In this document: positions 18,713-57,119 of the stretch, one piece after another
Numbering within the stretch: the stretch's first letter is position 1
How the letters are laid out: every line of letters begins with the position of its first letter
From: Celeribacter sp. HF31
GTDB lineage: Bacteria; Pseudomonadota; Alphaproteobacteria; Rhodobacterales; Rhodobacteraceae
Direction of reading: 5' to 3'
Length of the DNA stretch: 64,000 nucleotides
Assembly: GCF_011806455.1 (NCBI RefSeq)
Contig: NZ_JAATOT010000001.1
Location: forward strand, 620,001 to 684,000
Position numbers and translations under genes: made by a program
Notes under the pieces: generated by a model
What the model saw: only the letters and a program-made list of their open reading frames with translations
Databases searched by the model: none
What the model was told of the DNA's origin: nothing

Positions 18713-19354
18713 TCAGAGCTTGACGCCCATGCGTTTGAGCACGGGGGCCCATTGCTGTTTCATCGGCGCGTATTTCGCCTGAGACTGGTCGAAAATCGAC
18801 AGGCCTTCGCGCGCCAGATCGACATAGGCGGCGCGTTCGGAAATCATCGTGACGATTTCCTGCCCGTTGGCCTCGAGAAACTCCTTCAAAAGCCGCCCGT
18901 CCTTGCGCCGCGGGTCGATGCGCGAGCCGATGGGCAGGATGTCGACCTTCTCCTTGCGGATGCGTTTGAGATCGCGCAGCGTCTTCAGGAATCCTTTGAC
19001 CGCCAGCTCGTCGAACATTGAGGGCATCACTGGCGTGACCATGAAATCCGCCTCTTTCAGAAACGGCTTGGCGTCCTCCGCCTCAAGCCCCGCGCCGCTG
19101 TCGATCACCAGCCATTCGGTCTTTTTCGGCACCGAGGGCCGCGCGCCGCTTGATCCGGGCCCGGACCAGTCGAGCACCGGAATATGCGCCGCATAGGCCG
19201 AGCGCCGTTTGCCCCACATCCGGGCGGATTGCTGCGGGTCGGCATCGGCCAGCGCGACCTTGCGCCCGGCGGCTTTGAGCGCGGCCGCGAGCGTGATCGC
19301 CGTCATCGTCTTGCCGGAGCCACCTTTGCTGTTGGCGACGAGAAGCGTCTTCAC
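18713..19354 (-). CDS. Orphan ParA-family ATPase
   Basis: 213 residues, a short ParA/MinD type without an N-terminal DNA-binding domain. Deviant Walker A SKGGSGKTMTAITLA, ADADPQQSARMW, and Walker B-like WLVIDSGAGL. Such proteins position plasmids, chromosomes or protein cargo on the nucleoid. It follows a tiny ribbon-helix-helix gene by three bases, a ParA plus small-CopG-like organisation seen on plasmids, but no ParB or plasmid genes are nearby. Confidence 0.88.
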   Translation of the reverse strand: MKTLLVANSKGGSGKTMTAITLAAALKAAGRKVALADADPQQSARMWGKRRSAYAAHIPVLDWSGPGSSGARPSVPKKTEWLVIDSGAGLEAEDAKPFLKEADFMVTPVMPSMFDELAVKGFLKTLRDLKRIRKEKVDILPIGSRIDPRRKDGRLLKEFLEANGQEIVTMISERAAYVDLAREGLSIFDQSQAKYAPMKQQWAPVLKRMGVKL

Positions 19355-19685: not shown

Positions 19686-20180
19686 TCAGACCCCGCCCGA
19701 ATGTACCACCTCGTAATAGATTTTCTCAAGCTCTTCCTTATGTTCGGCTTCTTCGTTGGCGAGGAAGGTGAAAGCCTCTTTCAAGGGCCCCTCGGGCGCC
19801 GTGTCGGCCAGTTCCGTGTACTGATCCATCGCCGCCGTTTCGCGCAAAAGCGCGTATTGAAGTACGGTCTGATCGTCCGGGTTCTCGCCCAGATCGGGCA
19901 CCTGCACACAGTCGGAAAACTTGCCATCCGCCACGGGGCGCTGGATTTTTTCGGCCATCACGTCGGAGACTTTCGGGTCATTGGCGAGTTTGGTGAACAG
20001 GTCCACGTGACCCTGTTCCTCCTCGGCCAGTTCATCCACAAGCCAGCGAATGTTTTTCGACACTTTCGGCGCCAGAGCTTTGTAGAAATCCCGCGCCACG
20101 ACTTCGAAGGACGTCGCCGTGTCCATGATCTCCTTGACCGTGGTCAGGCCGGAGAGTTTTTCCTTGTTGGCTTCACTCAT
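19686..20180 (-). CDS. Rubrerythrin/ferritin-like di-iron protein
   Basis: 164 residues in a four-helix ferritin-like fold. The two di-iron half sites are visible: FEVVARDFYKAL with EEEQGHVDLF, and LRETAAMDQYTEL with EEAEHKEELE. No rubredoxin domain. It probably reduces peroxide or handles oxygen and iron. Start at 20180 (GGGAGA upstream) overlaps the flavoprotein stop by four bases, so it is the last gene of the 30871-19686 operon. It may protect the oxygen-sensitive iron-sulfur complex coded upstream (inference). Confidence 0.87.
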   Translation of the reverse strand: MSEANKEKLSGLTTVKEIMDTATSFEVVARDFYKALAPKVSKNIRWLVDELAEEEQGHVDLFTKLANDPKVSDVMAEKIQRPVADGKFSDCVQVPDLGENPDDQTVLQYALLRETAAMDQYTELADTAPEGPLKEAFTFLANEEAEHKEELEKIYYEVVHSGGV

Positions 20181-21973
20181 TGTACTTTCTCCCTTTTGGC
20201 CGCGAGCATTTTGCCCACGGAGACGGCGACGCGATGCCCGTCGGCCACGGCATGGATGACGTCGGGGCCAGAGACCGCATCGCCCGCCGCCCAAAGCCAC
20301 GGTTCCGAGGTCTGCCCAGTGCTGTCGATCATGATCCGGCCCCGGTTCCATTCGAGTTTCTCGGTCAGCGCCTCGCCCAAGAGCGAAATATCGGCCATTT
20401 GCCCGATGGCTTCGACGACCATCCCGGCGGGGTGGATCATCTCATCCGCCTCGTCGTATTTCGGAGCAAAGCGGCCTTGGTCGTCGAAAATGGCCTGCAC
20501 TTTCCAGGTTCTGAGGCCCATGACCGTCTCGCCGTCGAGCACGATCTCCTGCGGCCCGCGCGCTGGGTAGATTACGCAGCCTTCTTCCTGTGCCTCTTCG
20601 ATCTCTTCGCGGTCAGCGAGGAAGCGATCGAGGTCTTCGAGCGCGGTGACCGTGACGCCGACCCGACCGTATTTGATCTTTTGCAGCCGCGCCATGCTTC
20701 GCGCGATGTCCATCGCCACGTTGCCGCCGCCGATGACGGCCACCTGTTCGGGCACGGGAACCTCAACGCCTGCCGTGATCCTGCGCAACAGGTCAATCGC
20801 GGCTTCGGCTTTGTCAGACCCTGGCACACGGGTCGAGCGGCCTTGGTGCAAGCCGATGGAAAGCACGACGGCGTCATAGGCCTTGGCAAGCTGCTCCATC
20901 GAGATTTCATGGCCCACCCGCATGTTGCAGCGGATCTCTACGCCCATGGCCTCAATGACGGAAATCTCGTGGTCCAAGACGTCATAGGGCAGGCGGTATT
21001 CCGGGATGCCGTAGCGCATCATGCCGCCGGGCTTGTCCAGCGCCTCGAACACCACAACCTTGTGGCCTTTGCGGGCGAGATCGAAGGCGGTGGTGAGACC
21101 CGCAGGCCCGGCACCGATCACGGCGACCGACTGGCCGGTTTCGGGCACATCGGGTTTCTGGATCAGGTCGAAATAGCGGTCTTTGTCCACGGAATCCGTG
21201 ATCGCGCGTTTCAGCCAACGGATCGCAATCGCATCGCCTTCGTGCATCGCGGCGCAGGTGGTTTCGCATTTGTGGGTGCAGATGCGCCCGCAGGCCTGCG
21301 AAAACGGGTTGGTCTCATAGAGCAATTGCAACCCGCCCTCGAAATCACCGTCGCGGACCTTGGCGATATAATCCGGGATGTCCATATGCGCCGGGCAGGT
21401 GGCGACGCAGAGCCCGCATTCGACGCAACGGTCGGCCTCAATGACGGCCTGCTCCGGCGTGAACCCGTCGACGATCTCGCAGAAATTGCCAATTCGGTCC
21501 TCGGGCGCCAATTCCCCCATCGGCGCGCGGGTGGTGCCGGTCAGGCGGCGGGTGTCTTCGCGTTGATAGCCTTTCGGCTCCAGATCCCAGCTCTTGCCAT
21601 CGACGCCGGGGACGAAGCGAAACGCATCGGGGTCGCTGTCGACCCAGGTGTATTCGTTGGACATCGTCAGAGACCCGGTCATGCAGACATCGACGCACAA
21701 AGCGCACCAGCAGCAGCGGCCATAGTCGATCATGGGTCTGAGCCCCGAGTCTCCGGGACCGGCCTCTTGGCCCTCGACCGGCACCATATCAATGGCGGCG
21801 TTTTGGCAAATCTCTTCGCAGGAGCCACAGCCAATGCATTTGTCCATGTCATTCTGGTGAAAGCCGCGATAGCGATCCGCGCCCGGCCGGTTGAACGGGT
21901 CTTTGATGGTCACCGGATCGTTGATCACATGTTTCCACGCGGTGAAGGGGGAGAGTACGTCACGAAGGGACAT
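20177..21973 (-). CDS. NuoI/MbhN-like ferredoxin domain fused to GltD/NfnL-like FAD-NAD(P)H oxidoreductase
   Basis: 598 residues. Residues 30-110: two [4Fe-4S] sites, CIGCGSCEEIC and CCWCALCVDVC, in the NuoI/MbhN manner. Residues 185-250: further cysteines as in GltD/NfnL, CVECGLCVATC and CGRICTHKCETTC. Then FAD motif VAVIGAGPAGLTTAFDLA, NAD(P)H motif VAVIGGGNVAMDIARS, and closing FAD motif LWAAGDAVSGPDV. In normal complex I or Mbh, the NuoI-type subunit is a separate ferredoxin of about 150-180 residues; here it carries a whole pyridine-nucleotide dehydrogenase. I infer that the complex exchanges electrons between NAD(P)H and a quinone, ferredoxin or other partner, coupled to ion flow. Six bases follow the NuoD-like stop. 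Confidence 0.9.
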   Translation of the reverse strand: MSLRDVLSPFTAWKHVINDPVTIKDPFNRPGADRYRGFHQNDMDKCIGCGSCEEICQNAAIDMVPVEGQEAGPGDSGLRPMIDYGRCCWCALCVDVCMTGSLTMSNEYTWVDSDPDAFRFVPGVDGKSWDLEPKGYQREDTRRLTGTTRAPMGELAPEDRIGNFCEIVDGFTPEQAVIEADRCVECGLCVATCPAHMDIPDYIAKVRDGDFEGGLQLLYETNPFSQACGRICTHKCETTCAAMHEGDAIAIRWLKRAITDSVDKDRYFDLIQKPDVPETGQSVAVIGAGPAGLTTAFDLARKGHKVVVFEALDKPGGMMRYGIPEYRLPYDVLDHEISVIEAMGVEIRCNMRVGHEISMEQLAKAYDAVVLSIGLHQGRSTRVPGSDKAEAAIDLLRRITAGVEVPVPEQVAVIGGGNVAMDIARSMARLQKIKYGRVGVTVTALEDLDRFLADREEIEEAQEEGCVIYPARGPQEIVLDGETVMGLRTWKVQAIFDDQGRFAPKYDEADEMIHPAGMVVEAIGQMADISLLGEALTEKLEWNRGRIMIDSTGQTSEPWLWAAGDAVSGPDVIHAVADGHRVAVSVGKMLAAKREKVQ

Positions 21974-21979
21974 GTCGGG

Positions 21980-23158
21980 TTACCTCTCGATCTCGGGCGG
22001 ATAGGTGTGCAGCGACACCATGAGCGCCGCGATGTCGGAAATATTGGTGCCGGGGATGAGGTGTTCGAGCAAAGCCATGGCGTGGGTGTACGACGGCCCC
22101 CGGACATTGACGCGGCGGGGATAGCCGGTGCCGTCGGTGACCAGATAATAGCCATATTCGCCGCGCGAGCTTTCGCCCTTGATATAGGTCTCGCCGCGCG
22201 GGATTTTCCAATGCAGCACGTTGGGCAGGTTGGTCATGACCTCGCCCTCTTTCGGCATCTTTTTCAGGATCTGCCGGATGAGTTGAATGGTCTCATGCAG
22301 GTCTTTGAACCGCACGAGGGTGCGGGCGTAGATGTCCGACGCGGTCTCCGTGTGCACTGTGAAGTCGAGCTGATCGTAGACCAGATAGGGGCTGTCTTTG
22401 CGCACGTCTTTCGCCACACCGCCGGCGCGCGCGTTCGGGCCGGTGACGCCGTAGGTCTCAAACAGCGCCGGGTCGATCACGCCCACGCCTTGAGTACGGG
22501 TTTTGAACACAGAGCTGTGGAACATCAGCTTTTCGGCGTCGGCCAAGTATGTCTCGGCGGTCTGAAGCACCTCTTCCATCCGACCCTCAAAGCCCTCGGG
22601 CAGATGCGCCCGCACGCCACCCGGCAGGATGAACATGTGATAGATGCGCGCGCCGGTGAGTTCCTCGAACCGATCCAGCATGATGTCGCGGGTGTAGGTC
22701 ATCCATTGGCCCACGACGCCAAGGCCCAAAGCGCCGGAAATGCCACCCATCGCCATCATGTAGCTGTTGAACCGACCCATTTCCAAAATCAACGTTCTGA
22801 TCCAATTGGCCATTTCGGGCACTTCGATGCCCGCCAGCTCCTCAACGGCGGCGGCGTAGCAATATTCGTTGAAATCCGGCTCCGGCACGCAGACGCGGCA
22901 GACGATGGGAAAGACCTGAATGAAGGTCCGGCGCTCCATCAGTTTCTCAAAGCCGCGGTGCAGATAGCCGACATGGGTCTTGCCCTCGACGACCTCATCG
23001 CCACAGACGGTGAGTTCGACCGACATATTGCCGGTGATGCCGGGGTGGTTTGGACCGTGCCAGAGTTTCAGGTACTTGCCGGTCTCCAGATCGACCTCGA
23101 TTTTGCCATCGGGGCCGGGGGCGGGATATTGCGAGCGGTCGGGCTTAAACGAAAACAT
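21980..23158 (-). CDS. NuoD/MbhL-like large subunit (incomplete NiFe motif)
   Basis: 392 residues, the NiFe-hydrogenase large-subunit/NuoD family. LWHGPNHPGITG begins the fold. The N-terminal pair that ligates NiFe in hydrogenases is kept as IVCRVC, but the C-terminal end, ALMVSLHTYPPEIER, has no cysteine pair. It therefore cannot hold a normal NiFe centre, and is not a hydrogenase. Archaeal MBX/MBS large subunits have, as I recall, a similar half-motif. The ATG at 23158 overlaps the NuoC-like stop (TGATG). Confidence 0.93.
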   Translation of the reverse strand: MFSFKPDRSQYPAPGPDGKIEVDLETGKYLKLWHGPNHPGITGNMSVELTVCGDEVVEGKTHVGYLHRGFEKLMERRTFIQVFPIVCRVCVPEPDFNEYCYAAAVEELAGIEVPEMANWIRTLILEMGRFNSYMMAMGGISGALGLGVVGQWMTYTRDIMLDRFEELTGARIYHMFILPGGVRAHLPEGFEGRMEEVLQTAETYLADAEKLMFHSSVFKTRTQGVGVIDPALFETYGVTGPNARAGGVAKDVRKDSPYLVYDQLDFTVHTETASDIYARTLVRFKDLHETIQLIRQILKKMPKEGEVMTNLPNVLHWKIPRGETYIKGESSRGEYGYYLVTDGTGYPRRVNVRGPSYTHAMALLEHLIPGTNISDIAALMVSLHTYPPEIER

Positions 23159-23700
23159 CACTTGGCTCCTTTCGGATAATCCGCATAGAGCGTCTTTTGC
23201 ATATGCGTTTTCGGGTCATGGGTGACGCGGCCCGGGCGGTCGTTGTAGGTCTGCTGTGAATACGCCAGCGTGTCGAAATCGCGCCGGTAGGGGGGCAGGT
23301 CGGTCCAGCCCTCAAGGATAAACTCCTCATCCACACGCGGGGAGCCGGGGAAGGTGATGCCGAACATCTCTCTGAGCTCGCGCTGATAGGTGGCCGCCGT
23401 CGGCCAGAGGTCGTGGATTGTGTCACCGGTCGCGTCTTCACGGTCCAACATGACCCGCAGCGCCAGCGTCAGGTTGGCGACGCGGTTGTTGACCATATAG
23501 GTGAGCTGGAACTGCTGCTCTTCGATCCAGTCGACGGCGGTGAGCAATGTCAGATGGGTGAACCCCTCGACATCGCGCAGCTCGGTCAGGATCGCGCGCA
23601 GCTCGAAGCGTTTGACGGTCACGAAACACAGGTCATCGCGTTGAAACACCGGCGTTCCAAGGTGATAGCGGTCTTTGAGGCGGTATAGGATGTGTCTCAT
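23158..23700 (-). CDS. NuoC/MbhK-like 30-kDa subunit
   Basis: 180 residues from ATG 23700, which follows GGTGAG by five bases; a TTG twelve bases upstream is less likely. FTHLTLLTAVDWIE and the signature YQRELREMFGITFPGSPR are those of the complex I 30-kDa subunit. It links the NuoB- and NuoD-like subunits in the peripheral arm. It is separate from NuoD here, as in Mbh/Mbx. Confidence 0.92.
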   Translation of the reverse strand: MRHILYRLKDRYHLGTPVFQRDDLCFVTVKRFELRAILTELRDVEGFTHLTLLTAVDWIEEQQFQLTYMVNNRVANLTLALRVMLDREDATGDTIHDLWPTAATYQRELREMFGITFPGSPRVDEEFILEGWTDLPPYRRDFDTLAYSQQTYNDRPGRVTHDPKTHMQKTLYADYPKGAK

Positions 23701-23705
23701 GATGC

Positions 23706-24398
23706 TCACCAATTGTAATCCGGCATGTCCCAGTCACGGATCACCGCCTTTTGGTTGGCTTTGTACTGGTCGAAATTTTCGGCATAGAGGTTCGCGCCTT
23801 CGCCCTTGCCCTCTTTGATCACGCGCTTGAGTTCCATGAACCCATGAAGCAGCGCCTCGGGCCGGGGCATGCAGCCCGCGACATACATGTCCACGGGCAG
23901 GTAATCGTCGAGACGCTTGATCGTGTTGTAACTGTCCCAATACATGCCGCCGTTGATGGTGCAGGAGCCAAGGCCCATGACATATTTCGGCTGTGGCATC
24001 TGCTCATAGGCGCGGATGGCGCGTTTGAGGGTTTTGACCGACAGATAGCCGGAGATCACCAGAAGGTTCGCCTGACGCGGGGTGGGCCGCCACTGGATGC
24101 CATAGCGATAGGCATCGAAGCGCGGCGTCATCAGAGGGCGCATCTCGATCGCGCCGCAGCCGGTGCCAAAGCCCAGAATCCAAAGCGAATTCGCCCGCGC
24201 CCAGTTGTAGAAATCTTCTACAATCTTGGAATAGGCCTTGGGGTGAACCTTGGGTTTGGCTTCGCAGAAATAATCCCGCAGCGGGTCGATGTCGATTTCC
24301 TGCCCGTCGGGGGTTGTGACCTTGCGCGGGCGCAGCTCTTCGCGGAGCGGCACCTCTGTGTCGGGGTTCTTGAGGAACTTGTCGTCAACGTCTTTCAT
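23706..24398 (-). CDS. NuoB/MbhJ-like small subunit with altered cluster site
   Basis: 230 residues from ATG 24398. The N-terminal 60 residues are polar and extra to the core. Cluster N2 ligands expected in NuoB are two adjacent cysteines plus two more. Visible are GFGTGCGAIEM, where the second of the pair is glycine, LGSCTINGGMY and VAGCMPRPEAL. So only three of the four usual cysteines are seen, a feature that needs explaining by another ligand. It lies between NuoH-like and NuoC-like genes, as in Mbh operons. Confidence 0.92.
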   Translation of the reverse strand: MKDVDDKFLKNPDTEVPLREELRPRKVTTPDGQEIDIDPLRDYFCEAKPKVHPKAYSKIVEDFYNWARANSLWILGFGTGCGAIEMRPLMTPRFDAYRYGIQWRPTPRQANLLVISGYLSVKTLKRAIRAYEQMPQPKYVMGLGSCTINGGMYWDSYNTIKRLDDYLPVDMYVAGCMPRPEALLHGFMELKRVIKEGKGEGANLYAENFDQYKANQKAVIRDWDMPDYNW

Positions 24399-24402
24399 AG
24401 GA

Positions 24403-25320
24403 TCACACCACCAGAATGGAGAGGACGCCGATGGGCAGCCCCCATTTGAGGAAGAAACGGATGCTCTGCTCGACCCGGAACCGGGGATGCACGACACCGA
24501 TCACGACGGAGATCATGTAGAGGCAGAACACTTTGATCGCGAACTCGGCCCAGCTCGTGGCGCCCCCGAAGAAGAGGTTCATGTAGATGACCGTCTTGGC
24601 GACCGGGAAGAGCACGCGATTGGTCTGCATCAGAGCAAGGTAGGAGGAATGGTATTCGGTCGGCGGGCCGATGGGGATTTCCTGCGGCGCCATGGCGACA
24701 TCGAAGGGCGAGCGCATCATGGTGCCGACAAAGGCGACCATCGCGGCGACTGTGGCCAGAGGATTGGTGAAGACCGTCCAGTTGAAGATGGAGCCCTGTT
24801 GGGCGGCGACAATCTCGGTGATGTCGAGGGTCTGGTATTGGAGAGAGAGCGCAAAGACGCCCAAGGCCAGAGGCAGTTCGGCCATGGTCACCTGCGCCAG
24901 ACCGCGAGAGACGCCGATGGCGCTATGTGGATGGCCGCTTTCGCCAGCCCCCAAAGCCATGCCAAGCGTGCCGAAGAACACGAAATAGAGCGCAAGGATC
25001 AGATCGCCTGCATAGGAGAAGTTCTGATGCCATTCGGAGCCATAGATCGTCGGGACGAACATCAAAAGGCCGACACCGCCCGTCAGCCGGAACACCGGCC
25101 CGAGGTAATACATCACGCCATGGGAGATCTTGGACCGCAGCGCGATGTTCTTGAGCAAATCGACATAGTTCTGCCAGACCGGGATGCCGTAACGCCCCCC
25201 GACCCGCGCACCGATCTTGCGCACCACGGCGGTCATCACCATGCCGTAGTTGATCACGATGAAGAGCGTCAAAAGCGCATAGGCGATCTGGACCCATTCG
25301 AAATTCGGAAACGCGGTCAT
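24403..25320 (-). CDS. NuoH/MbhM-like membrane subunit
   Basis: 305 residues, about eight membrane segments. RKIGARVGGRYGIPVWQNYVD and MRSPFDVAMAPQEIPIGPPTEY are conserved NuoH/HycD segments at the junction of membrane and peripheral arms. It overlaps the antiporter gene by four bases. It connects the redox part with the ion-translocating part. Confidence 0.93.
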   Translation of the reverse strand: MTAFPNFEWVQIAYALLTLFIVINYGMVMTAVVRKIGARVGGRYGIPVWQNYVDLLKNIALRSKISHGVMYYLGPVFRLTGGVGLLMFVPTIYGSEWHQNFSYAGDLILALYFVFFGTLGMALGAGESGHPHSAIGVSRGLAQVTMAELPLALGVFALSLQYQTLDITEIVAAQQGSIFNWTVFTNPLATVAAMVAFVGTMMRSPFDVAMAPQEIPIGPPTEYHSSYLALMQTNRVLFPVAKTVIYMNLFFGGATSWAEFAIKVFCLYMISVVIGVVHPRFRVEQSIRFFLKWGLPIGVLSILVV

Positions 25321-28300
25321 GACGAGGCTCCCATGCTGATCAGGTAGACGGCGATGACGAAGAGCAAGAGGTGCACCGCATAGGTCTGGCCGTTGCCGGT
25401 GTAGAGTTTGCGGCTGAACTCGGCGGTGCCATGGAGCGCATTGGTGACGCCGGTCCAGAAGCTTGTGGACACAGGGGTCTCAAGGAACCCCATCGCCTTG
25501 CGGTAGGGCGCAAAGAAGTTCCAGGCGAAATGCGTGGTCTGCGGTTTGAACGGGCGTTCTGCCGAGAAGACGATGTTGAATTGTTTCACGCGCTGGGCGT
25601 TGTGGTTCATCCAAATGAGCAGGCCCAGCACGGTGACGAACACCACGATGATCACGCCCCAGATCGCCACAGGGTTCCAGGTGCCGTAGGCGCTGTTGAC
25701 GATCCGCCCGGACCACACCAGCGGCTGATCCCCGAAGAGCGTGCCAATATAGCGGTCCACGCGCTGAAGGATCATGCCGGGAAGGGCGGCGAAGGCGATG
25801 AGGAAGGCGACAAACAACATCTGCGGCAGGATGATCCAGAAGGGGGCTTCTTTGACTTGGCGCAGGTTGTCCTTCGGTTGACCGAGGAAGATCGTGTGGA
25901 TGAGCCGGAAAAGATAGAGAAAGCCCACAGGCCCCGCCATGAAGACCAATACCATAGGAAGGCGCAGATCGGTGGACATGATCGCATTGTAGAAAATCCA
26001 GCGCCCGCCAAAGCCCGACAGCGGCGGCACGCCGGACATGGCGATGATGCCGACGAGCACAGAGACAAAGCTCAAAGGCATGAGGGTGATCAACCCGCCC
26101 ATCTGGTACATGAGCCGCGTGTGGGTGCGTTCTTTCACACCACCGACGGCGAGGAACAGCATGCTCTTGTAGACGAAATGGTTGATCGCGAACATCATCG
26201 CCAAAAGCCAGCCGAGATGGTTCATCAGAGCGAGACCGAAGACCGCGTAGCCCATCTGGGAAATGGAGCTATAGGCGAGAAGCCGTTTAGCATCCTCTTG
26301 GAAGGCGGCGAGAACCGCGCCGATAAAGGCGGAAAGCGCGCCCAGCCAGACGAGAAGATGGGTGAGGTCGACCCCATAGAGGCGTTGATGCCCCATCTCC
26401 ATCACGAGCACGAACAAGCCGAAGAGACCTGCCTTCAAGAGAATGCCTGACACCATGGGGGAGACATCCGTCTCGGCTTCGGCATGAGCCCCGGGGAGCC
26501 AGATATGCAGCCCCATCGCGGCGGTTTTCGTCAGGAACCCCAGAGCCAGAAGGACAAAGACCCAAGGCGCCAGCGTGCCGGTCAGCTCGGAGAGATCTTC
26601 GATCCAGAATATCCGCTGGCCTTGGGCCGCGAGGGCAAAGCCCGCCAGCAAAGCAAAGGCCCCGCCCAAAGAGAAGAGGATGTAGGACAACGCATGCGGC
26701 TCGCTTTCCTTGCCGCGCAGAATGAGGAAATAGGACCCGATGGTGAGCATTTCCCAGGCGGCAAAGAATTGGAACGCGGTGAAAGCCTCCAAAAGCAGCG
26801 CCATCCCCGCATACATGATCATCGCGGGCGCATAAAATCCCATGCGACGGCCCTGATGATGGAAAGACGCGAGGAACAGCACCGCACCGCCCAGCATCAT
26901 GATGATCATGAACACAAGGCGCAGCGGGTCGAGGTCTTGGTAGGAGATCACGAACCAGACCACGAGGCCCGCCATGGCAATGGCGTTTTTAACCCGCGCG
27001 GGCAGGATGTCCATCGGCAGGAACAGAAGCGCGAACAAGAGGGGCAGGGCGGTCATCACATTGCCCTGATCGCTCAACGCGCCCCAGACCCAACCCAAGC
27101 CCCAACCCGCGAGCATGGCGATCAGCACGATGGTCTCACGGCTGAGATGATAGGTCAGGCTGCGCTGGGCGTCGTGTTTGATCGCCTTGCCGAACCAACG
27201 GAACAGTACACCCGCCTCGATGAGCGCCGCGATCAGGAAGATGGCGAGCATCGGCAGCTGACCCGTGGCGGCGAATTCATGCACCAGCACCCATTTGGCA
27301 TAGAACGCGGGGAAGGGCGGCAGGCCGGTGAGCATGGCGATGAACGTCGCGAAGGCGACGACCAGAGCCGGGTTTTGGCATAGGGCGGCCCAGTCGGAGA
27401 GGGTGCGCCCCTTGACCATGCCGGAAAGCCAGAACAGCCCGGCTTTGGCCACGGCATGCGAAATCACGATCCCGCCCGCGACATAGGCAAAATCCGCGCC
27501 CAAAAGCGCCTTTTGCCCGACGACCAGCAGGACAAGTCCGATCTGGCCGACGGAGGAATAGCCCAACAGCCGCCGATCATGGCTTTGCGACAGCGCCAAA
27601 AGGTTCGCGCCGACAAAAGTGACGATCCCGACGCCCGTCGCCAGCGGCAACCAAGCGGGACCTGCGGCGGTAAAGAGCTTGTCTGCGGCAAAGAGTGCGG
27701 CCGTGCCGGAGGCGGCGGAGAACAGCGCTGAAAATCCGGGATGGGCGGATTCGTAAATGTCCAAGGCCCAGCCATTGGCGGGGAAGGGTTTCAGCTCCAA
27801 GACCAAAGCTATGAGCACGAGGAAAGTGGCCAGAGAGGCGCCTGTGAAGGCCATCGGAGTGGCCGCGATGTCGTCGATATTGAGCGAGCCATGGGCGTGA
27901 TAGGTGAAGATGACGCCCACCAGAAGCAGGATCGAAATCACCTGAGAAACAATGAGATATTTGAACCCGGCGGCCAGCGCGCGGGTGTCTTTCGACAAAA
28001 GCACAAGCCCGGCGGTGGCGATCACGATCAGCTCTATGAAGACGAAAAGGTTGAACAGGTCGCGCGTCAGGATCAGCCCCGACAGCGCCATGATCAGCAC
28101 CAAAAGCACCGCCATCGCCCGGCGCCCCAGCCGCATCAGATCGGCGCGCATATAAAAGGCGGACAAAAGCCCCGTGAGGGTGACCACGGAGATTAACGCC
28201 GCCTCTGCGCCGCCCATGAACAGGTTGATCGCAAAGGGCGGTCGCGCGCCTGCGGTCAGGATTTCGACGGGCTGGGTCTGGCCCAGGACCAATCCCACGA

Positions 28301-28442
28301 CCCAGGACAGGGCCACGAATGACATGGCGGCCAGCGCGGCGATGGTGACGTAAAACGCCGGGCGTTCGGAGGTGCCGCGCAAAAGCCCGAGGATGAAAGC
28401 GGCGCCGAGGCCGGCTGCGAGGATGAGAAGAGGGCTTACCAT
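25317..28442 (-). CDS. Fused double antiporter-like subunit (two NuoL/M/N-MrpD-type modules)
   Basis: 1041 residues, about twice the usual length. Module 1 (about 1-480): FNLFVFIELIVIATAGLVLL, the broken-helix lysine region LELKPFPANGWALDIYESAH, YSSVGQIGLVLLVVG and HAVAKAGLFWLSGMV. Module 2 (about 500-930): FQFFAAWEMLTIGSYFLIL, FLTKTAAMGLHIWLPGAHA, ILLKAGLFGLFVLV, YSSISQMGYAVFGLAL and NHFVYKSMLFLAVGG. Residues 930-1041 hold a further membrane segment and a soluble loop. Both modules keep the glutamate and lysines used for ion pumping. Archaeal MBX has two separate such subunits; here they are one polypeptide. One uninterrupted frame, so not an assembly frameshift by appearance. Confidence 0.92.
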   Translation of the reverse strand: MVSPLLILAAGLGAAFILGLLRGTSERPAFYVTIAALAAMSFVALSWVVGLVLGQTQPVEILTAGARPPFAINLFMGGAEAALISVVTLTGLLSAFYMRADLMRLGRRAMAVLLVLIMALSGLILTRDLFNLFVFIELIVIATAGLVLLSKDTRALAAGFKYLIVSQVISILLLVGVIFTYHAHGSLNIDDIAATPMAFTGASLATFLVLIALVLELKPFPANGWALDIYESAHPGFSALFSAASGTAALFAADKLFTAAGPAWLPLATGVGIVTFVGANLLALSQSHDRRLLGYSSVGQIGLVLLVVGQKALLGADFAYVAGGIVISHAVAKAGLFWLSGMVKGRTLSDWAALCQNPALVVAFATFIAMLTGLPPFPAFYAKWVLVHEFAATGQLPMLAIFLIAALIEAGVLFRWFGKAIKHDAQRSLTYHLSRETIVLIAMLAGWGLGWVWGALSDQGNVMTALPLLFALLFLPMDILPARVKNAIAMAGLVVWFVISYQDLDPLRLVFMIIMMLGGAVLFLASFHHQGRRMGFYAPAMIMYAGMALLLEAFTAFQFFAAWEMLTIGSYFLILRGKESEPHALSYILFSLGGAFALLAGFALAAQGQRIFWIEDLSELTGTLAPWVFVLLALGFLTKTAAMGLHIWLPGAHAEAETDVSPMVSGILLKAGLFGLFVLVMEMGHQRLYGVDLTHLLVWLGALSAFIGAVLAAFQEDAKRLLAYSSISQMGYAVFGLALMNHLGWLLAMMFAINHFVYKSMLFLAVGGVKERTHTRLMYQMGGLITLMPLSFVSVLVGIIAMSGVPPLSGFGGRWIFYNAIMSTDLRLPMVLVFMAGPVGFLYLFRLIHTIFLGQPKDNLRQVKEAPFWIILPQMLFVAFLIAFAALPGMILQRVDRYIGTLFGDQPLVWSGRIVNSAYGTWNPVAIWGVIIVVFVTVLGLLIWMNHNAQRVKQFNIVFSAERPFKPQTTHFAWNFFAPYRKAMGFLETPVSTSFWTGVTNALHGTAEFSRKLYTGNGQTYAVHLLLFVIAVYLISMGASS

Positions 28443-28798
28443 TTCAGCTCCGTAAAATCAGAGATGTCGAGGCTGCCGCGGGCGCGGAACAGCCGGTAGG
28501 CATAGGCGAGCATCAAGGCGGTGACGCCGAGGCCGATGACGATGGCCGTGAGGACGAGCGCTTGCGGTACCGGGTCGGTGATGCGCGTTGCGGCCTCTGC
28601 CACGGGGACCGCCTCATCAAGGATTGGCGCGCTGCGTCCGGGCAGGTAGCCGACCGACACGAGCACCACGTTCACGCCGGTGCTGGCGATGGTGAAACTC
28701 ACGATCATGCGGATGATGTCGCGGTTGGTGAGCGCGCCGTAAAGGCCCAGAAGGATGAGAGAAAATCCCAAAGCCATGGCGATCTGAGACAGCATCAT
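28436..28798 (-). CDS. MrpC/MnhC (NuoK-like) subunit
   Basis: 120 residues, three membrane segments, with NRDIIRMIVSFTIASTGVNVVL and DPVPQALVLTAIVIGLGVTAL, the standard MrpC/NuoK signature. Overlaps both neighbours. In Mbh this is MbhG. Confidence 0.92.
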   Translation of the reverse strand: MMLSQIAMALGFSLILLGLYGALTNRDIIRMIVSFTIASTGVNVVLVSVGYLPGRSAPILDEAVPVAEAATRITDPVPQALVLTAIVIGLGVTALMLAYAYRLFRARGSLDISDFTELKW

Positions 28799-29502
28799 TG
28801 CGCGTCCTCCGTGTCTTCAAGCGAGGTGAGGATCGAGGAGAATTCTGCCCCAACCTTGAGCCCGATGAGGATGTAGATCAGCGGGATGGCGCCTGCGGAA
28901 AATACCGACCCGAACCAGCCCAAAGGCAGGATGCGGTTGTCGAGAAAGCCGCCTGCGAAGATCATGCCCAGAAGGCCAAGGATCACGTAGATCAGACCCG
29001 CCGAGCTCTCGATCCGGGAAATCAGGCGATGCGAAAACCGCTCCGCCGGATCGGCGAGAAGCATCAACAAAAGGCCCGAGGCCACAATCGCCCCGCCTTG
29101 AAACCCGCCGCCCGGGGTCAGGTGGCCGTTGGCGAAAACATAGGCGCCGAAGAGCAAGATCACCGGCACCAGCATCCGCGTGCCCGTGGTCAGCAATTCG
29201 CCCGAGGGCAGAAACCCCGAACCGGAGCGGCCTTTCGGCGCTTTCGATTGGGCCAGAACCAGCCCGACAATGGCGGCGGTGAGGAACAGAACCGTCACTT
29301 CGCCCAATGTATCGAGGCCACGATAGGTGACGATGATCGCGGTGACCACGTTCTGCGCGCCGGTCTCTGGCACGGTCTGGGTGGCGTAATAGCTGGCCGT
29401 GCGGTTCAGCGTCTCATCGGGGGTGAACCCCACGAAAAGTGCGAAAAACACCGTGCCCAAGAGAGCCAGCAACACGAGTGGAATGAAACTGCGTGTGGTC
29501 AT
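28795..29502 (-). CDS. MbhE-MrpB (MnhB) fusion subunit
   Basis: 235 residues. The first 85 residues match the C-terminal end of MrpA/MbhE (VTYRGLDTLGEVTVLFLTA). Residues 100-225 are MrpB/MbhF (FANGHLTPGGGFQGGAIVA, LPLGWFGSVFSAGAIPLIY). In Pyrococcus Mbh these are separate genes. Overlaps of four bases with both neighbours show coupling. Confidence 0.88.
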   Translation of the reverse strand: MTTRSFIPLVLLALLGTVFFALFVGFTPDETLNRTASYYATQTVPETGAQNVVTAIIVTYRGLDTLGEVTVLFLTAAIVGLVLAQSKAPKGRSGSGFLPSGELLTTGTRMLVPVILLFGAYVFANGHLTPGGGFQGGAIVASGLLLMLLADPAERFSHRLISRIESSAGLIYVILGLLGMIFAGGFLDNRILPLGWFGSVFSAGAIPLIYILIGLKVGAEFSSILTSLEDTEDAQ

Positions 29503-29750
29503 TTCGAACCCTCCCTACGGATGCGGCCCAGAACGAAAAAGAACAGGAAGGTGGTGAGGCCCGATCCGATTGCGGCCTCGGTCATCGCCACGTCAGGCGC
29601 GGCGAGAAGGAGGAAGAGAACCGAGGCGAAAAGCGACACGAGACCGGCGGAGAGCACAGCTATGGCGGTCGAGCGGGTCGTAAGCGCCATGAGCGCCGCG
29701 CCCAGAGTTGCGACGGCCAGAACGGCGGCCACGAGGGTCAAAGCGGTCAT
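29499..29750 (-). CDS. MbhD-like (MrpA C-terminal) subunit
   Basis: 83 residues, three membrane segments. LLAAPDVAMTEAAIGSGLTT is the conserved MrpA/MbhD motif. The start at 29750 overlaps the MrpG stop by four bases. Too small to be a full MrpA; the antiporter core is coded at 25317-28442 instead. Confidence 0.85.
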   Translation of the reverse strand: MTALTLVAAVLAVATLGAALMALTTRSTAIAVLSAGLVSLFASVLFLLLAAPDVAMTEAAIGSGLTTFLFFFVLGRIRREGSK

Positions 29751-30088
29751 GCCAAATCCTCCGCATCTTCGTCGAGCCTGTCGGCCTTGGTCTCCGGCGT
29801 CATCGGCGCGTCGGAACGATGCGCGGCGCGGGCCAGAACCTGGGATGACAGGGGGTTGGTGAACATCAGGAAAAGCATGATCAGAAGGAGCTTGATCGAC
29901 CACGAAGGCATGATCAGGGCGGCGCCAACCAGTACCATAAGCGTGCCCAAGGTGGTCGCTTTCGTGCCCGCCTGAATGCGGTTGTATATGTCGGGCATGC
30001 GCACAAGGCCAAGGCCGCCAAGCGCCAGAAACAGCGCCCCGCCGAGCATCATCAGGGCACCGATTGTATCGAAAAATCCTGACATCAT
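29747..30088 (-). CDS. MrpG/MnhG subunit
   Basis: 113 residues, three membrane segments and a charged C-terminal tail. LGLVRMPDIYNRIQAGTKATTLG is abridged here to its family hallmark, RMPDIYNRIQAGTKATTLG. Overlaps MrpF and MbhD-like genes by four bases. Confidence 0.92.
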   Translation of the reverse strand: MMSGFFDTIGALMMLGGALFLALGGLGLVRMPDIYNRIQAGTKATTLGTLMVLVGAALIMPSWSIKLLLIMLFLMFTNPLSSQVLARAAHRSDAPMTPETKADRLDEDAEDLA

Positions 30089-30345
30089 TCGCCCCCCTCC
30101 AGATAGCGCGCGGCGACGATGACGCCGAGGAACGACAGGAGCGCATAGACCAGAGCGACGTCGAGATAGATCGACCGACCGGTGATCAAAGCGGCCAAAA
30201 CGATGCCAGTGACGGAGATGATCGTCAGCACGTCAAAGGCGACCACGCGGTCCAAGGCGCGCGGGCCTTTGACGAACCGCCACGCGGCCAGAGCGAAGGC
30301 CGCAAAGACCAGACAGCCCGCCAATATGAGAAGCACGTCAGCCAT
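30085..30345 (-). CDS. MrpF/MnhF subunit
   Basis: 86 residues, three membrane segments. FVKGPRALDRVVAFDVLTI and YLDVALVYALLSFLGVIVAAR are the typical MrpF motifs. Eight-base overlap with MrpE. Confidence 0.92.
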   Translation of the reverse strand: MADVLLILAGCLVFAAFALAAWRFVKGPRALDRVVAFDVLTIISVTGIVLAALITGRSIYLDVALVYALLSFLGVIVAARYLEGGE

Positions 30346-30871
30346 ACATCACCTCCAGATAGCGTTCGAAGCCGGCGACGATCTCTTGTGTCGCGGCCTC
30401 GATGTCGGTGCTTTGGGCGACCACCCAATGCACATAGAGAAACTCGCCCTTGATCTCGCAGGTCAGCGTGCCGGGCGTGAGCGTGATCGCATTCGCCAAA
30501 AGCAACCGCCCGACCGGATCGGTCAGTTTCGTGCGCACCTTGACGATGGCCGGATCGACCGGCAGCGCAGGCGTCAGGACCAATTTGGCCAGCGCCAGAT
30601 TGGCCTTCACCAGCTCTTTCAGGAAATAGCCGATGAACAGGATGGCCGCGCCGATCCCCGCAGGTGTCAGGTGGAACCCCGAGAGAAACGACAGGTTGCG
30701 GGCGAAGAAGATCGCGATCACACCCGCGACAACGAGGCCGCTGATCAGGGTTGCAATCGACAGAGAGCCGTTGAGCAAAATCCAGAACAGGAACAGCGTC
30801 GCGAACAACCGTGTCGCGAGCGGGCGCCAAGGCGCGGCTGTTCCTTTGGAGAGTAAACCCGTGTCGCTCAT
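30338..30871 (-). CDS. MrpE/MnhE subunit
   Basis: 177 residues from ATG 30871, which has GGAGG eight bases upstream. TLTPGTLTCEIKGEFLYVHW is the MrpE signature near the C-terminus. It is the first gene of the operon; the order E, F, G, then MbhD, MbhE-B, C, antiporter, H, B, C, D, I matches archaeal Mbh/Mbx gene order. Confidence 0.9.
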   Translation of the reverse strand: MSDTGLLSKGTAAPWRPLATRLFATLFLFWILLNGSLSIATLISGLVVAGVIAIFFARNLSFLSGFHLTPAGIGAAILFIGYFLKELVKANLALAKLVLTPALPVDPAIVKVRTKLTDPVGRLLLANAITLTPGTLTCEIKGEFLYVHWVVAQSTDIEAATQEIVAGFERYLEVMYG

Positions 30872-31068: not shown

Positions 31069-31082
31069 TTGACCTCGGACAA
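31069..31082. promoter_or_regulatory. Degenerate FNR-like box between Mrp operon and dehydrogenase
   Basis: TTGACCTCGGACAA fits TTGAY-N4-RTCAA with one mismatch. It lies in the 305-bp divergent promoter region, about 200 bases from the MrpE start and 95 from the dehydrogenase start. The site at 38996 is stronger; this one may be chance. Confidence 0.3.
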
Positions 31083-33621: not shown

Positions 33622-36600
33622 TCAAAACGACCCCGTGCCCATCACTCGGCTCGGGTCCGGGCCTTTTTCCATTTCGGCGAATTCCTCATAGGTGCGGTAT
33701 TTGTCGAGAATGCCCGATTGTGCCATCTCAAGAAGCTCGGCGGCTTCCTCGGGGCGCGATTGCGTGAGCTGACGATAGCGCAGCTCGCCATAGGCGTAGT
33801 CCTTGAACGGCAAGGTCGGGCGCGGGCTGTCGAGCCGGAAGGGCGGCGTGCCCGTGCCATGCAGTGCCGGATCGAACCGCAACAGCGGCCAATAGCCGGA
33901 TTTCACCGCTTTTTGCTGTTGGTTCAACCCTTTGCGCATGTCGATGCCATGGGCGATGCAATGCGAATAGGCGAGGATGATCGACGGCCCGTCCCAGGCC
34001 TCCGCCTCGCGGAAGGCTTGCAAGGTTTGCTGCGGATTGGCGCCCAAGGCCACCTGCGCGACATAGACATTGCCATAGGCGATGGCCTGAAGCGCCATGT
34101 CTTTGCGGTTGGTGCGCTTGCCTGCGGCGGCGAATTTGGCGATTGCGCCCAAGGGCGTGGCTTTGGAGGCCTGACCGCCGGTGTTGGAATAAACCTCTGT
34201 GTCCATCACCAGAATATTGACGTTGCGCCCCGACGCCAGCACGTGATCGAGCCCGCCATAGCCGATGTCATAGGCCCAGCCATCGCCGCCGACCAGCCAG
34301 ATCGCGCGTTTGACGAGATGGTCGGAGAGGGACAGCAAATGTTCAATGTCTTCGGACCGGGGCAGGCCGAGAAGCTTGGTTTTGAGCACTCCCACACGCT
34401 CGCGTTGGCTGCGAATTTCGGATTCGCGGACCTGCGGCGCGGTGAGGATGTCCTGCACCAGATCGTCGCCGACATCTGGCGCCAGCCTGCGCAACAGATC
34501 CTGCGCCAGAGCGCTCTGTTTGTCGGCGGCCAGACGGAAACCGAGACCGAATTCCGCGTTGTCCTCAAAGAGCGAATTGGCCCAGGCCGGACCGCGACCT
34601 TCTGCGTTCTTGGTCCAGGGCGTCACCGGCAGGTTGCCTCCGTAAATCGACGAACAGCCGGTGGCATTGGCGACCATGAGCCTGTCGCCGAACAACTGGC
34701 TGAGCAATTTGACATAAGGCGTCTCGCCACAGCCCGCACAGGCGCCGGGGAATTCGAACAAAGGCTCAAGGAATTGCACCCCGCGCACATTGGCGAAATC
34801 CACCCGCGAGCGATCGTTGACCGGCAGGCTCTCGAAAAAGGCGATGTTCTCGCGTTCGCGTTCCGGCAGGTCTTCTTTGAGATGCAGGTTGATCGCTTTT
34901 TGTGTCGGATCGTCTTCCGAGATCGCCGGGCAGGCCTCGACACAAAGGCCGCAGCCGGTGCAGTCCTCGAGGTAAAATTCCAGCGCAAATTCCGCATCCG
35001 GGTAGCCGCGCGCGTTGACCGGGGCATGTTTGAAACCGTCTGGTGCCCCCTCGAGCAGGTCCTCGTCGAAATACTTCGCACGGATCACGGAATGCGGACA
35101 GACAAAGGAACATTGCCCGCATTGGATGCAGTCTTCGGCGATCCACACCGGCACCTCATCGGCGACATTGCGTTTTTCCCAGGCGGCAGTGCCGGAGGGG
35201 AAAGTGCCGTCGACGGGCAGGGCGGAGACGGGGATGTCGTCGCCCATGCCCTCCATCATTTTCGCGGTCACATCGCGCACGAATGACGGCGCATCTTCGG
35301 GCACCAAGGCGGGACGTTCGAGGATACTGGTGGGCGCGGCTGGCACAGCAATTTCATGCAGGCCCTTCAAAGCGCCATCGACGGCGGCAAAGTTTTTCTC
35401 CACCACCTCGCGGCCTTTTTTTGCGTAGGTCTTCTCGATCGCGTGTTTGATCTTTTCAATCGCTTCCTCGCGCGGCAAGACGCCCGAGAGCGCAAAGAAA
35501 CAGGTCTGCAAAATCGTGTTGGTGCGCCCGCCAAGGCCCAGCTCGCGGGCCGCCGTGGTGGCGTCGATCACGTAGAATTTCAGCCCTTTGTCGATGATCA
35601 CCTGTTGCACGGAACGCGGGAGGCGATCCCAGGTGGCCTCCGCCCCGTAGGGTGAATTCAACAGGAAAATCGCACCGGGTTTCGCCAGTTTCAGCACGTC
35701 CATTTTCATCAGGAAATGGAACTGATGACAGGCGAGGAAATTGGCCGAGGCGATCAGGTACGGCGCCGCAATCGGTTCGGGACCAAAGCGCAGATGGCTC
35801 TCAGTCACGGCGCCGGATTTGTGGCTGTCATAAACGAAATAGCCCTGGGCGAAATGATCCTCTTCGGCGGCGATGATTTTGACCGAGTTCTTGTTCGCGC
35901 CGACCGTGCCGTCCGCGCCGAGACCGTAGAACACCGCGCGCACGACGTTGTCTTTTTCGATGTCATAGGTGGGATCGACCTTGAGCGATGTGAAGGACAC
36001 GTCATCTGTGATGCCGACGGTGAAATTTGTTTTGGGCTGATCTTTCAACAGGTTGTCGAACACGGCCTTGGCCTGTGCCGGCGTAAAGTCCTTGGACGAC
36101 AGCCCATAGCGCCCGCCGATCACGCGCGGCATGGTGGCCCGTGTGCCGGTGGCGACGGCTTCGGCAAGCGCCGAGACGACATCGAGATAAAGCGGTTCGC
36201 CCGTGGTGCCGGGCTCTTTCGAGCGGTCCAGAACGGCGATTTTCTCGACCGTTTCGGGGAGTGCTGCGAAGAGGTGTTTCGGCGAGAACGGACGATAAAG
36301 GCGGACAGTGATCAGGCCGATTTTCTCGCCCTTGGCCTCCAGATCCGCGACGGTCGCAGAGATCACATCGACGCCCGAGCCCATGGCAATCACCACACGG
36401 GTCGCGTCCGGCGCGCCAGTGTAATCAAAAGGCTGATAGCGGCGGCCGGTCATGGCGCCCAAGGTGTTCATTTCCTCCGCGACGATCTCCGGCACGGCGG
36501 CGTAGAACGGGTTGGCGGCCTCGCGGCCCTGGAAGAACACGTCGGGGTTCTGCGCGGTGCCACGGATAAAGGGATTTTCCGGCGACAAAGCACGTTTGCG

Positions 36601-37257
36601 ATGCGCGCGCACCAGATCGTCGTCGATCATCGCCCGGATTTGATCGTCAGGGATGAGATCGAGCGTGTTGACCTCATGAGACGTGCGGAAGCCGTCGAAG
36701 AAATGGATGAAGGGAATGCGGGCTTTGAGCGTTGCGGCATGGGCCACGAGCGCCATGTCATGCGCCTCTTGAACGGAGGCCGAGGCCAGCATGGCAAAGC
36801 CCGTGGAGCGTGCGGCCATGACATCGGCATGATCGCCAAAGATCGACAGCGCATGCGTCGCAAGAGAGCGCGCGGCGACGTGGAACACGGTCGGCGTCAA
36901 CTCGCCCGCGATTTTGAACATATTGGGCAGCATCAGCATGAGACCCTGAGACGCGGTAAAGGTCGTGGTCAGGGCACCCGCTTGCAACGCGCCGTGGACC
37001 GTGCCCGCCGCCCCGCCTTCGGATTGCATTTCCTGAATGACCGGGACGTCGCCCCAGATGTTGTGCACGCCCTGCGCGGTCCAATCATCCGCAAGCTCGG
37101 CCATGGGGGAGGAGGGCGTGATCGGGTAGATCGAACAGACCTCGTTCACGCGGTAGGCGATATGCGCGACGGCGGCGTTGCCGTCCATGGTGGAATGGCT
37201 GTGGGTCGCTTCGCGGGTCTCGTTGGACGGCGGTGTGATGTGGTCGTGGTCAAGCAT
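33622..37257 (-). CDS. nifJ: Pyruvate:ferredoxin (flavodoxin) oxidoreductase
   Basis: 1211 residues from ATG 37257 with GAGGAGG upstream. Single-chain PFOR with all domains: N-terminal pyrimidine-binding domain (AYRVNEVCSIYPITPSSPM), gamma-like domain, two [4Fe-4S] sites (CIQCGQCSFVC and CTGCGLCVEAC), CAGCGETPYVKLLSQLFG, and TPP/Mg site GGDGWAYDIGYGGLDHV. It converts pyruvate and CoA to acetyl-CoA, CO2 and reduced ferredoxin or flavodoxin, in the cytoplasm and normally under low oxygen. The start overlaps the preceding flavoprotein gene by eight bases. FNR-like box at 38996 precedes the operon. Confidence 0.95.
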   Translation of the reverse strand: MLDHDHITPPSNETREATHSHSTMDGNAAVAHIAYRVNEVCSIYPITPSSPMAELADDWTAQGVHNIWGDVPVIQEMQSEGGAAGTVHGALQAGALTTTFTASQGLMLMLPNMFKIAGELTPTVFHVAARSLATHALSIFGDHADVMAARSTGFAMLASASVQEAHDMALVAHAATLKARIPFIHFFDGFRTSHEVNTLDLIPDDQIRAMIDDDLVRAHRKRALSPENPFIRGTAQNPDVFFQGREAANPFYAAVPEIVAEEMNTLGAMTGRRYQPFDYTGAPDATRVVIAMGSGVDVISATVADLEAKGEKIGLITVRLYRPFSPKHLFAALPETVEKIAVLDRSKEPGTTGEPLYLDVVSALAEAVATGTRATMPRVIGGRYGLSSKDFTPAQAKAVFDNLLKDQPKTNFTVGITDDVSFTSLKVDPTYDIEKDNVVRAVFYGLGADGTVGANKNSVKIIAAEEDHFAQGYFVYDSHKSGAVTESHLRFGPEPIAAPYLIASANFLACHQFHFLMKMDVLKLAKPGAIFLLNSPYGAEATWDRLPRSVQQVIIDKGLKFYVIDATTAARELGLGGRTNTILQTCFFALSGVLPREEAIEKIKHAIEKTYAKKGREVVEKNFAAVDGALKGLHEIAVPAAPTSILERPALVPEDAPSFVRDVTAKMMEGMGDDIPVSALPVDGTFPSGTAAWEKRNVADEVPVWIAEDCIQCGQCSFVCPHSVIRAKYFDEDLLEGAPDGFKHAPVNARGYPDAEFALEFYLEDCTGCGLCVEACPAISEDDPTQKAINLHLKEDLPERERENIAFFESLPVNDRSRVDFANVRGVQFLEPLFEFPGACAGCGETPYVKLLSQLFGDRLMVANATGCSSIYGGNLPVTPWTKNAEGRGPAWANSLFEDNAEFGLGFRLAADKQSALAQDLLRRLAPDVGDDLVQDILTAPQVRESEIRSQRERVGVLKTKLLGLPRSEDIEHLLSLSDHLVKRAIWLVGGDGWAYDIGYGGLDHVLASGRNVNILVMDTEVYSNTGGQASKATPLGAIAKFAAAGKRTNRKDMALQAIAYGNVYVAQVALGANPQQTLQAFREAEAWDGPSIILAYSHCIAHGIDMRKGLNQQQKAVKSGYWPLLRFDPALHGTGTPPFRLDSPRPTLPFKDYAYGELRYRQLTQSRPEEAAELLEMAQSGILDKYRTYEEFAEMEKGPDPSRVMGTGSF

Positions 37258-38926: not shown

Positions 38927-38995
38927 GAGAGGCCTCACATGGATGTGGCTGGGCTATGGCTGGACGCAGCATCGCGGGGTTTCCCCGCCCGGGCG

Positions 38996-39009
38996 TTGAC
39001 ATATATCAA
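38996..39009 (-). promoter_or_regulatory. FNR-type (FnrL-like) binding site upstream of the PFOR operon
   Basis: TTGACATATATCAA is one base from the canonical TTGAT-N4-ATCAA. It lies 70 bases upstream of the flavoprotein start, a normal activator position. This predicts induction at low oxygen. Confidence 0.65.
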
Positions 39010-55462: not shown

Positions 55463-55778
55463 ATGTTCAACTCGGTTTTGGGCCGCTCAGGTCTCGTGTG
55501 GTTGCCAAGTCTGGCGGTCCGTTCGAGCCCGGGCTGATTGATCTTCTGCGTTCGTATATAGGCCTTGTGACGTTGCGTGAAAACCCGATAACAGACCCCG
55601 ACCCGGGGAGAATGGCGCAAACTCTGCCTATGTTTTGGGCGTCCACGCATGATTATGCGGCGTGAAGAGCGGGATAAGACCGAAAATGACCGGATCATAA
55701 ATTTTACCGCTTGATAAAAAATTGAAGCCTGCCACGCTCGAGTCACCAAGAAAAGCAAGCCAACAGGGAGCAAGCCCG
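55463..55778. other. Divergent promoter region accB/preT, no gene
   Basis: 316 bp without a supported gene. Near preT, TTTTACCGCTTGATAAAAAA forms a loose AT-rich inverted repeat that may hold the promoter. No RutR-like box was seen here. Confidence 0.5.
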
Positions 55779-57116: not shown

Positions 57117-57119
57117 GCC

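Follow-up and report, generated by a model that had tools for sequence, protein, structure and literature searches.

A NuoI-GltD fusion in a bacterial MBX/MBS-type complex of Celeribacter sp. HF31: a putative ion-pumping NAD(H):polysulfide/disulfide oxidoreductase

Results and Discussion

A twelve-subunit complex of the MBX/MBS family

We analyzed a 64,000-nucleotide stretch of the 3.6-Mb genome of Celeribacter sp. HF31 (contig NZ_JAATOT010000001.1, positions 620,001 to 684,000; hereafter, the window), in which 13 tightly packed genes on the minus strand (19686-30871) encode 12 subunits of a membrane complex and a rubrerythrin-like protein. By sequence, the complex is assigned to the MBX/MBS family, as a variant inside that family rather than a new kind. 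Its distinguishing subunit joins NuoI, the counterpart of the ferredoxin-side MbsN, to a GltD/NfnL-type flavoprotein. We hold at about even confidence that the complex is a bacterial MBX/MBS-type ion-pumping NAD(H):polysulfide/disulfide oxidoreductase, for which we infer the nucleotide, the substrate and the direction. The subunits were assigned with Pfam and NCBIfam models, and the start of the NuoB-like gene was set at the ATG at 24398. Neighboring genes of the operon overlap by 4-8 bases or are separated by 4-6 bases, and their GC content (0.59-0.63) is the same as that of the window. An earlier note made from the DNA letters had named these genes and their order, strand and tight packing correctly, as the models and coordinates confirm; it counted twelve genes, although its own list holds 13 (the 12 subunits plus the rubrerythrin). 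For comparison, a genome_contigs scan for relatives of the fusion found at least 551, of which 80 loci were kept (L011-L090). These provide the main counts, because L001-L008 partly repeat genomes of L011-L025; L009 and L010, which carry plain GltD, were left out of the fusion counts.

The large and small catalytic-core subunits carry the family assignment. The NuoD-like protein (MbsL position, 21980-23161, minus strand) has MbsL of the Pyrococcus furiosus MBS (6u8y_L) as its best solved relative (302 bits, vs 220 for Nqo4). In a 55-row NuoD tree, in which the program flagged several long branches, the window protein, 39 other MBX rows and MbsL formed one clade (100/100), complex I a separate clade (98/93), and the hydrogenases together with Ehr another (100/99). 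The canonical NuoD that the same genome carries elsewhere grouped within complex I. Similarly, the NuoB-like protein (MbsJ position, 23706-24398, minus strand) was closest to MbsJ (6u8y_J, 210.7 bits, vs 140.9 for the best complex-I-type chain). The window alignment shows that it keeps the three cysteines of the MBS proximal cluster and has neither tandem cysteines nor CxxC; the three-cysteine motif was present in NuoB of 68 of 72 loci. In MBS, this three-cysteine cluster is catalytic, and C25, whose counterpart is gone in the window NuoB, is a cysteine that does not ligate it (PMC7684303). The gene order, the NuoD tree and the three-cysteine cluster agree with the proposal of the earlier note of an MBX/MBS-like complex with a Mrp-type ion-pump module. 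The tree, one of the checks it suggested, places NuoD outside canonical nuo and, together with the separate canonical NuoD, bears out its distinction from ordinary complex I.

The putative substrate chamber looks like that of MBS as well. The "half" NiFe motif mentioned in the earlier note is real and corresponds to an N-terminal C-R-V-C of NuoD; the C-terminal cysteine pair is absent, as read from the sequence and from a survey of the loci. Further, the positions of Nqo4 H38 and Y87, described as quinone residues (PMC7684303), align with T43 and V92 of the window NuoD. The cysteine pattern, the missing NiFe pair and the replaced quinone residues together suggest an MBS-like chamber, and the last of these makes quinone, one of the substrates proposed earlier, unlikely. 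The homologous NuoB/C/D/H/I core could nonetheless be read as an NADH:quinone oxidoreductase substituting for complex I. We regard this as improbable, given the loss of both quinone residues, the lack of tandem cysteines in NuoB, the position of NuoD outside complex I and a genome already provided with canonical NuoD.

Three other identities were rejected. Complex I (nuo) itself does not fit on the same grounds of NuoD placement, NuoB cysteines and absent H38/Y87. A group 4 [NiFe]-hydrogenase requires two CxxC pairs, for which locus L113 served as the comparison, and the large subunit has the N-terminal pair alone. A stand-alone Mrp antiporter operon would lack redox subunits, whereas this operon includes NuoH, B, C, D and the fusion. 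In the same set of large subunits, we observed two Ehr-like proteins without any CxxC (L121 of G084 and L122 of G081), which form a long-branch pair beside the hydrogenases.

The remaining subunits, all on the minus strand, complete an MBX/MBS set in which Mrp E/F/G/B/C-like and MbhD/E-like proteins and two MbsH-type antiporters are all present. The distal module starts with MrpE-like (MbsA position, 30338-30871, PF01899), MrpF-like (MbsB, 30085-30345, PF04066) and MrpG-like (MbsC, 29747-30088, PF03334) proteins, followed by an MbhD-like protein (MbsD, 29499-29750, PF13244), an MbhE-MrpB protein (MbsE, 28795-29502, PF20501 and PF04039) and an MrpC-like protein (MbsG, 28436-28798, PF00420 and the MnhC/MrpC NCBIfam models). 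A 1041-residue double antiporter (25317-28442) carries MbsH and MbsH' in one chain, with two PF00361 stretches, and precedes the NuoH-like (MbsM, 24403-25320, PF00146) and, after NuoB, the NuoC-like (MbsK, 23158-23700, PF00329) subunits. Open frames of about 1040-1240 residues were found for the antiporter gene in most loci holding it whole; the antiporters are separate proteins in L131-L133 and fused in L134 as in the window.

MBS of P. furiosus (PDB 6u8y) thus has in common with the window complex the subunit set, the NuoD clade, the three-cysteine proximal cluster, the two antiporter subunits and the Mrp-like distal module. It differs in that it draws electrons from ferredoxin through MbsN, whereas the window NuoI bears the GltD flavoprotein; in its separate H and H' subunits; and in MbsJ C25 and MbsL C385, which are lost in the window. 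Among bacteria, a 13-subunit MBX homologous to MBS is described in Thermotoga maritima (PMC9431562), a 13-gene mbx cluster in Thermoanaerobacter (PMC3608648) and a "putative Mrp-Mbx complex" in the Riftia symbiont, a gammaproteobacterium (PMC11636981). The available parts of these accounts name no GltD fusion, and the same fusion may occur there.

The nucleotide module and its two types

The NuoI-GltD fusion (598 residues, 20177-21973, minus strand) was delineated with Pfam, NCBIfam, alignments and a structural model, and comprises two NuoI-type clusters, a Fer4_20 domain and FAD and NAD domains. Residues 143-597 share the GltD-type fold, with 9bov_A and 8oh5_C as the best matches by sequence. 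At residues 444-446, where NADP enzymes carry YRR, the window fusion has A-L-E. The form (A/S/C)-L-E, preceded by a six-residue insert, was found in 77 of the 80 loci (84 of 88 when L001-L008 are included); the motif was unreadable in L027 and L063, and C. ethanolicus (L008, L025) has ARKD at this position. YRR is carried by all five solved GltD-like relatives that we aligned and by the other GltD-like protein of the window, GltD2. In NfnB, Y310-R311-R312 holds the NADP phosphate (PMC7596348). The same contrast has been described in DsrL, a GltD-like nucleotide module of sulfur metabolism: DsrL-2, with YRR, uses NADP(H) only, and DsrL-1, which lacks it, shows a preference or requirement for NAD(H) and has S/T-L-E among its motif combinations (PMC7596348). 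Unlike the window complex, DsrL is partnered by a sulfite reductase and no ion pump (PMC7596348). Because the motif contrast is clear and has the DsrL precedent, we predict that fusions with this motif, hereafter LE-type, use NAD(H) rather than NADP(H). The NAD(P)H module of the earlier note stands as a fused nucleotide module and is narrowed by this prediction to NAD(H).

Fusions of the other, YRR-type were found in some of the same hosts. A paralog search of 50 host genomes drawn from the 80 loci revealed more than one fusion in eight of them, and each of the eight second-type fusions that were read (L137-L143, L149) had YRR (for G387, two of four fusion matches were read). When the motif columns were removed before the fusion tree was computed, a branch with support of 93/99 (92% of 200 bootstraps) kept the LE rows together on one side. 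The YRR rows, which are not one clade, adjoin the outgroup; as this is a single long row, the notion that YRR is basal is weak. The simplest reading of these sequences is a switch from NADP(H) to NAD(H) within the fusion family. In L134 (G076:C36), NuoD and the NuoI part lie near the LE types, and the GltD part has YRR and is 39% identical to the window, a pattern that suggests exchange of the GltD module. Separately, the C. ethanolicus fusion (L025, 10001-11797) is 70% identical to that of the window, compared with 77-95% for the other subunits, as if the gene had been replaced or were diverging.

The AlphaFold model of the fusion has a mean pLDDT of 79.8, with values of 45-81 per block of ten residues in the NuoI part and 63-97, mostly above 85, from residue 281 onward. 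In structural comparison, the model is closest to NfnL (5jfc_L, Z 38.5, 3.1 A over 432 residues), and Foldseek matched it to 5jca_L (E 1.2e-37). NfnL/NfnB, StnC and NfnABC are, however, soluble and carry YRR, whereas the GltD part of the window fusion has A-L-E and is joined to NuoI as part of a membrane complex. The NfnL match, together with R327, the arginine of the EYR motif, which is invariant across the family rows, could be taken to indicate flavin-based bifurcation at the GltD flavin, with the electrons of NADH going partly to ferredoxin and partly to the proximal cluster. We consider this very improbable. At the flavin-side cluster, the position of StnC K170 is occupied by a lysine (K255) that is invariant in 39 of 39 family rows and is also a lysine in all eight YRR fusions; StnC and NfnABC likewise have lysine, and 4ylf_B and 5vj7_A have glutamate by alignment reading. 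Lysine-bearing StnC is a non-bifurcating shuttle and retains the arginine (R239) as well, yet does not bifurcate there (PMC10482914). Membership among the bifurcating Nfn enzymes was rejected for the lack of an NfnS-like gene among the 13 genes, for K255 in place of glutamate and for A-L-E in place of YRR. We infer instead that electrons run along a linear wire that leads from NAD(H), via FAD and the clusters, to the proximal cluster.

Proposed reaction and arguments against it

In the NAD(H):polysulfide/disulfide reading, FAD would accept a hydride from NADH and hand electrons on, first to the Fer4_20 clusters, then to the pair of NuoI clusters and finally to the site-differentiated proximal cluster. 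There, polysulfide or another disulfide would be reduced (or, in the backward direction, oxidized) in the NuoB/NuoD/NuoH chamber. The redox step would power the transport of H+ and/or Na+ by both antiporter domains and by the distal Mrp-like module. The complex should work reversibly: in fermenting anaerobes it would be an NADH sink, and in sulfur-oxidizing hosts it would use the ion gradient to bring electrons from sulfane sulfur to NAD+. Both the sulfane substrate and the direction are proposed from the likeness to MBS. In T. maritima, mbxA was upregulated 4.36-fold after sulfur addition (PMC9431562). Further, the cellular NADH/NAD+ couple is generally more positive than -320 mV and the NADPH/NADP+ couple more negative (PMC7596348); YRR-type MBX would therefore suit sulfane reduction, and the NAD-type could run either way. 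More broadly, and tentatively, the complex can be viewed as an NADH-linked, complex-I-like pump of separate origin in which the fused GltD/NfnL module, having changed from NADP(H) to NAD(H), replaces NuoEFG, and sulfane sulfur, reacting at a site-differentiated cluster, replaces quinone.

Several points weigh against the NAD(H):polysulfide/disulfide reading. The potential step from NADH to polysulfide is small, so forward pumping would be weak. The operon contains no sulfur gene. The weakness of the NuoI part of the model means that the electron wire is not established structurally. Moreover, YRR in L134 and ARKD in C. ethanolicus make the motif an imperfect marker, and the NuoD tree, which counts two changes, does not unite the LE rows in a single clade.

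Distribution of the fusion and of the gene order

All 12 subunit genes were present in 59 of the 80 loci, and their order and strand were identical in all 59, the outcome of a neighborhood survey such as the earlier note had suggested for the Rhodobacterales. In the other 21 loci, part of the flank or some genes were missing and the visible genes kept the order. Such conservation is more than chance. Hosts among the loci listed belong to the Bacteroidota, Chlorobiota, Cloacimonadota, Neomarinimicrobiota, Delongbacteria, Aminicenantes, Spirochaetales, Chromatiaceae and Rhodobacterales, and the nearest named relatives among the matches listed are Celeribacter fusions 90-92% identical to that of the window. 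The fusion is already catalogued as NF010590 (PRK13984, "putative oxidoreductase"), a family model that assigns no function. It matches the window fusion over its full length with 846.6 bits, below its curated cut-off of 946 bits; three other fusions also scored below the cut-off (908.3, 662.5 and 571.9 bits), which was exceeded in one genome of a 14-genome control. Being catalogued and widespread, the NuoI-GltD architecture is not particular to this organism. In agreement with the earlier note, we found no paper in the open-licence literature that describes the NuoI-GltD/MBX fusion or assigns it a function.

The genes downstream of the fusion vary. The rubrerythrin-like protein of the window (19686-20180, minus strand, PF02915), whose gene overlaps that of the fusion by 4 bases, matches a protein in 24 of the 80 loci and is probably accessory. 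A dihydroorotate-dehydrogenase-like protein follows the fusion in 34 loci (L044, 11790-12779, and 33 others), the listed ones mostly Bacteroidales, and, among the other downstream protein clusters, a CBS-domain protein is represented in 17 loci and a rubrerythrin-like protein in 10. A ParA/MipZ-like ATPase adjoins the rubrerythrin gene in the window (18713-19354) and is also found in MBX-bearing Celeribacter loci (L011-L013, L025).

A presence/absence cassette and the question of ferredoxin

Within the genus, MBX was present in 7 of 20 genomes. In three genomes without it (G017, G005, G012), the sequences to either side align collinearly with the window and the segment between 19.5-19.8 kb and 31.2-31.3 kb is missing; G007, with MBX, aligns through this segment at 94%. 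The operon is, hence, a presence/absence cassette in the genus, in a pattern of absence that does not separate gain from loss. Of the three, G017 alone retains a weak match to the final 114 bases of the rubrerythrin gene; because this remnant of the 3' end persists, G017 may have lost the operon.

A NifJ-type pyruvate:ferredoxin oxidoreductase (PFOR) encoded 2.8 kb upstream of the operon raises the alternative that reduced ferredoxin, for example from NifJ, feeds the NuoI clusters and from there the proximal cluster and/or FAD and NAD+, in an Rnf-like, ion-pumping reaction. MBS accepts ferredoxin electrons at its NuoI-like subunit (PMC7684303), and an earlier proposal for MBX was that of a ferredoxin:NAD(P)+ oxidoreductase (PMC3608648). 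NifJ was found in 11 of the 20 genus genomes, including all seven MBX carriers, and RnfC was over the cut-off in none of 22 genomes. However, NifJ and MBX are physically linked within the genus, and its related strains do not count as independent cases. In a family sample of 296 genomes, one for nearly every genus, the fusion occurred in three and NifJ in one, and two of the three fusion carriers lacked NifJ-type PFOR (other PFOR types were not searched). Dependence of MBX on a neighboring NifJ was not upheld in this sample. Further, direct electron transfer from ferredoxin to NAD+ would leave out the coupling chamber. Ferredoxin, which the earlier note named among the possible reactants, is a possible donor, and we rate this alternative as rather unlikely. 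SoxB was found in 18 of the 22 genomes, in nine of nine MBX carriers and nine of 13 non-carriers (in G019 the match was split in two pieces), and its co-occurrence with MBX was set aside as uninformative because non-carriers also have it.

NifJ adjoins GltD2 on the minus strand (33622-38938). A perfect FNR-type palindrome, TTGAY-N4-RTCAA, lies upstream of this pair (38996-39009), and similar palindromes were seen near the NifJ-GltD2 pair in G005 and G012. Elsewhere in the window (55722-58418), a PreT-like protein (Fer4_20 and Pyr_redox) is encoded beside a PreA-like protein (DHO_dh and Fer4), probably for reductive pyrimidine degradation.

A conserved site upstream of the operon

An operator-like site, TTGTCCGAGGTCAA (31069-31082, minus strand), precedes the start of mrpE by about 200 bases. 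Its form, TTGT-N6-TCAA, resembles half-sites of the FNR/CRP family and occurs upstream of mrpE, at varying distances, in 15 of 15 Rhodobacterales regions; the pattern used for counting was written after the sites had been seen. Its background was 17 sites on both strands of the 361,387 bases of the same sequences. The form was missing in six other proteobacterial upstream regions (L023, L026, L028, L029, L031, L032). An exact FNR-type box is absent before mrpE, where the site has one mismatch, and one-mismatch matches numbered nine in the window against 4.83 expected by chance. The evidence for this candidate operator is conservation, not consensus.

Significance

The current view derives complex I from MBH/MBS-like machines, with NuoEFG as the entry point for NADH. 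The family described here would be a second way to join nicotinamide nucleotide to an MBH/MBS-like core. The fusion was already catalogued; new here are its two sequence-defined subtypes (YRR-type and LE-type), the StnC-type lysine, the genus cassette and the conserved TTGT-N6-TCAA site. Predicted NADP-type and NAD-type versions side by side in some genomes would offer a clean contrast for nucleotide choice, ion stoichiometry and the substrate of the proximal cluster, and Celeribacter a mesophilic bacterium in which to study it. In Sox-bearing Rhodobacterales and in Chromatiaceae, the reverse mode would make the complex an ion-gradient-powered sulfane:NAD+ reductase. The operon also puts a respiratory complex of anaerobes, in the form of a gain/loss cassette, in marine Roseobacteraceae.

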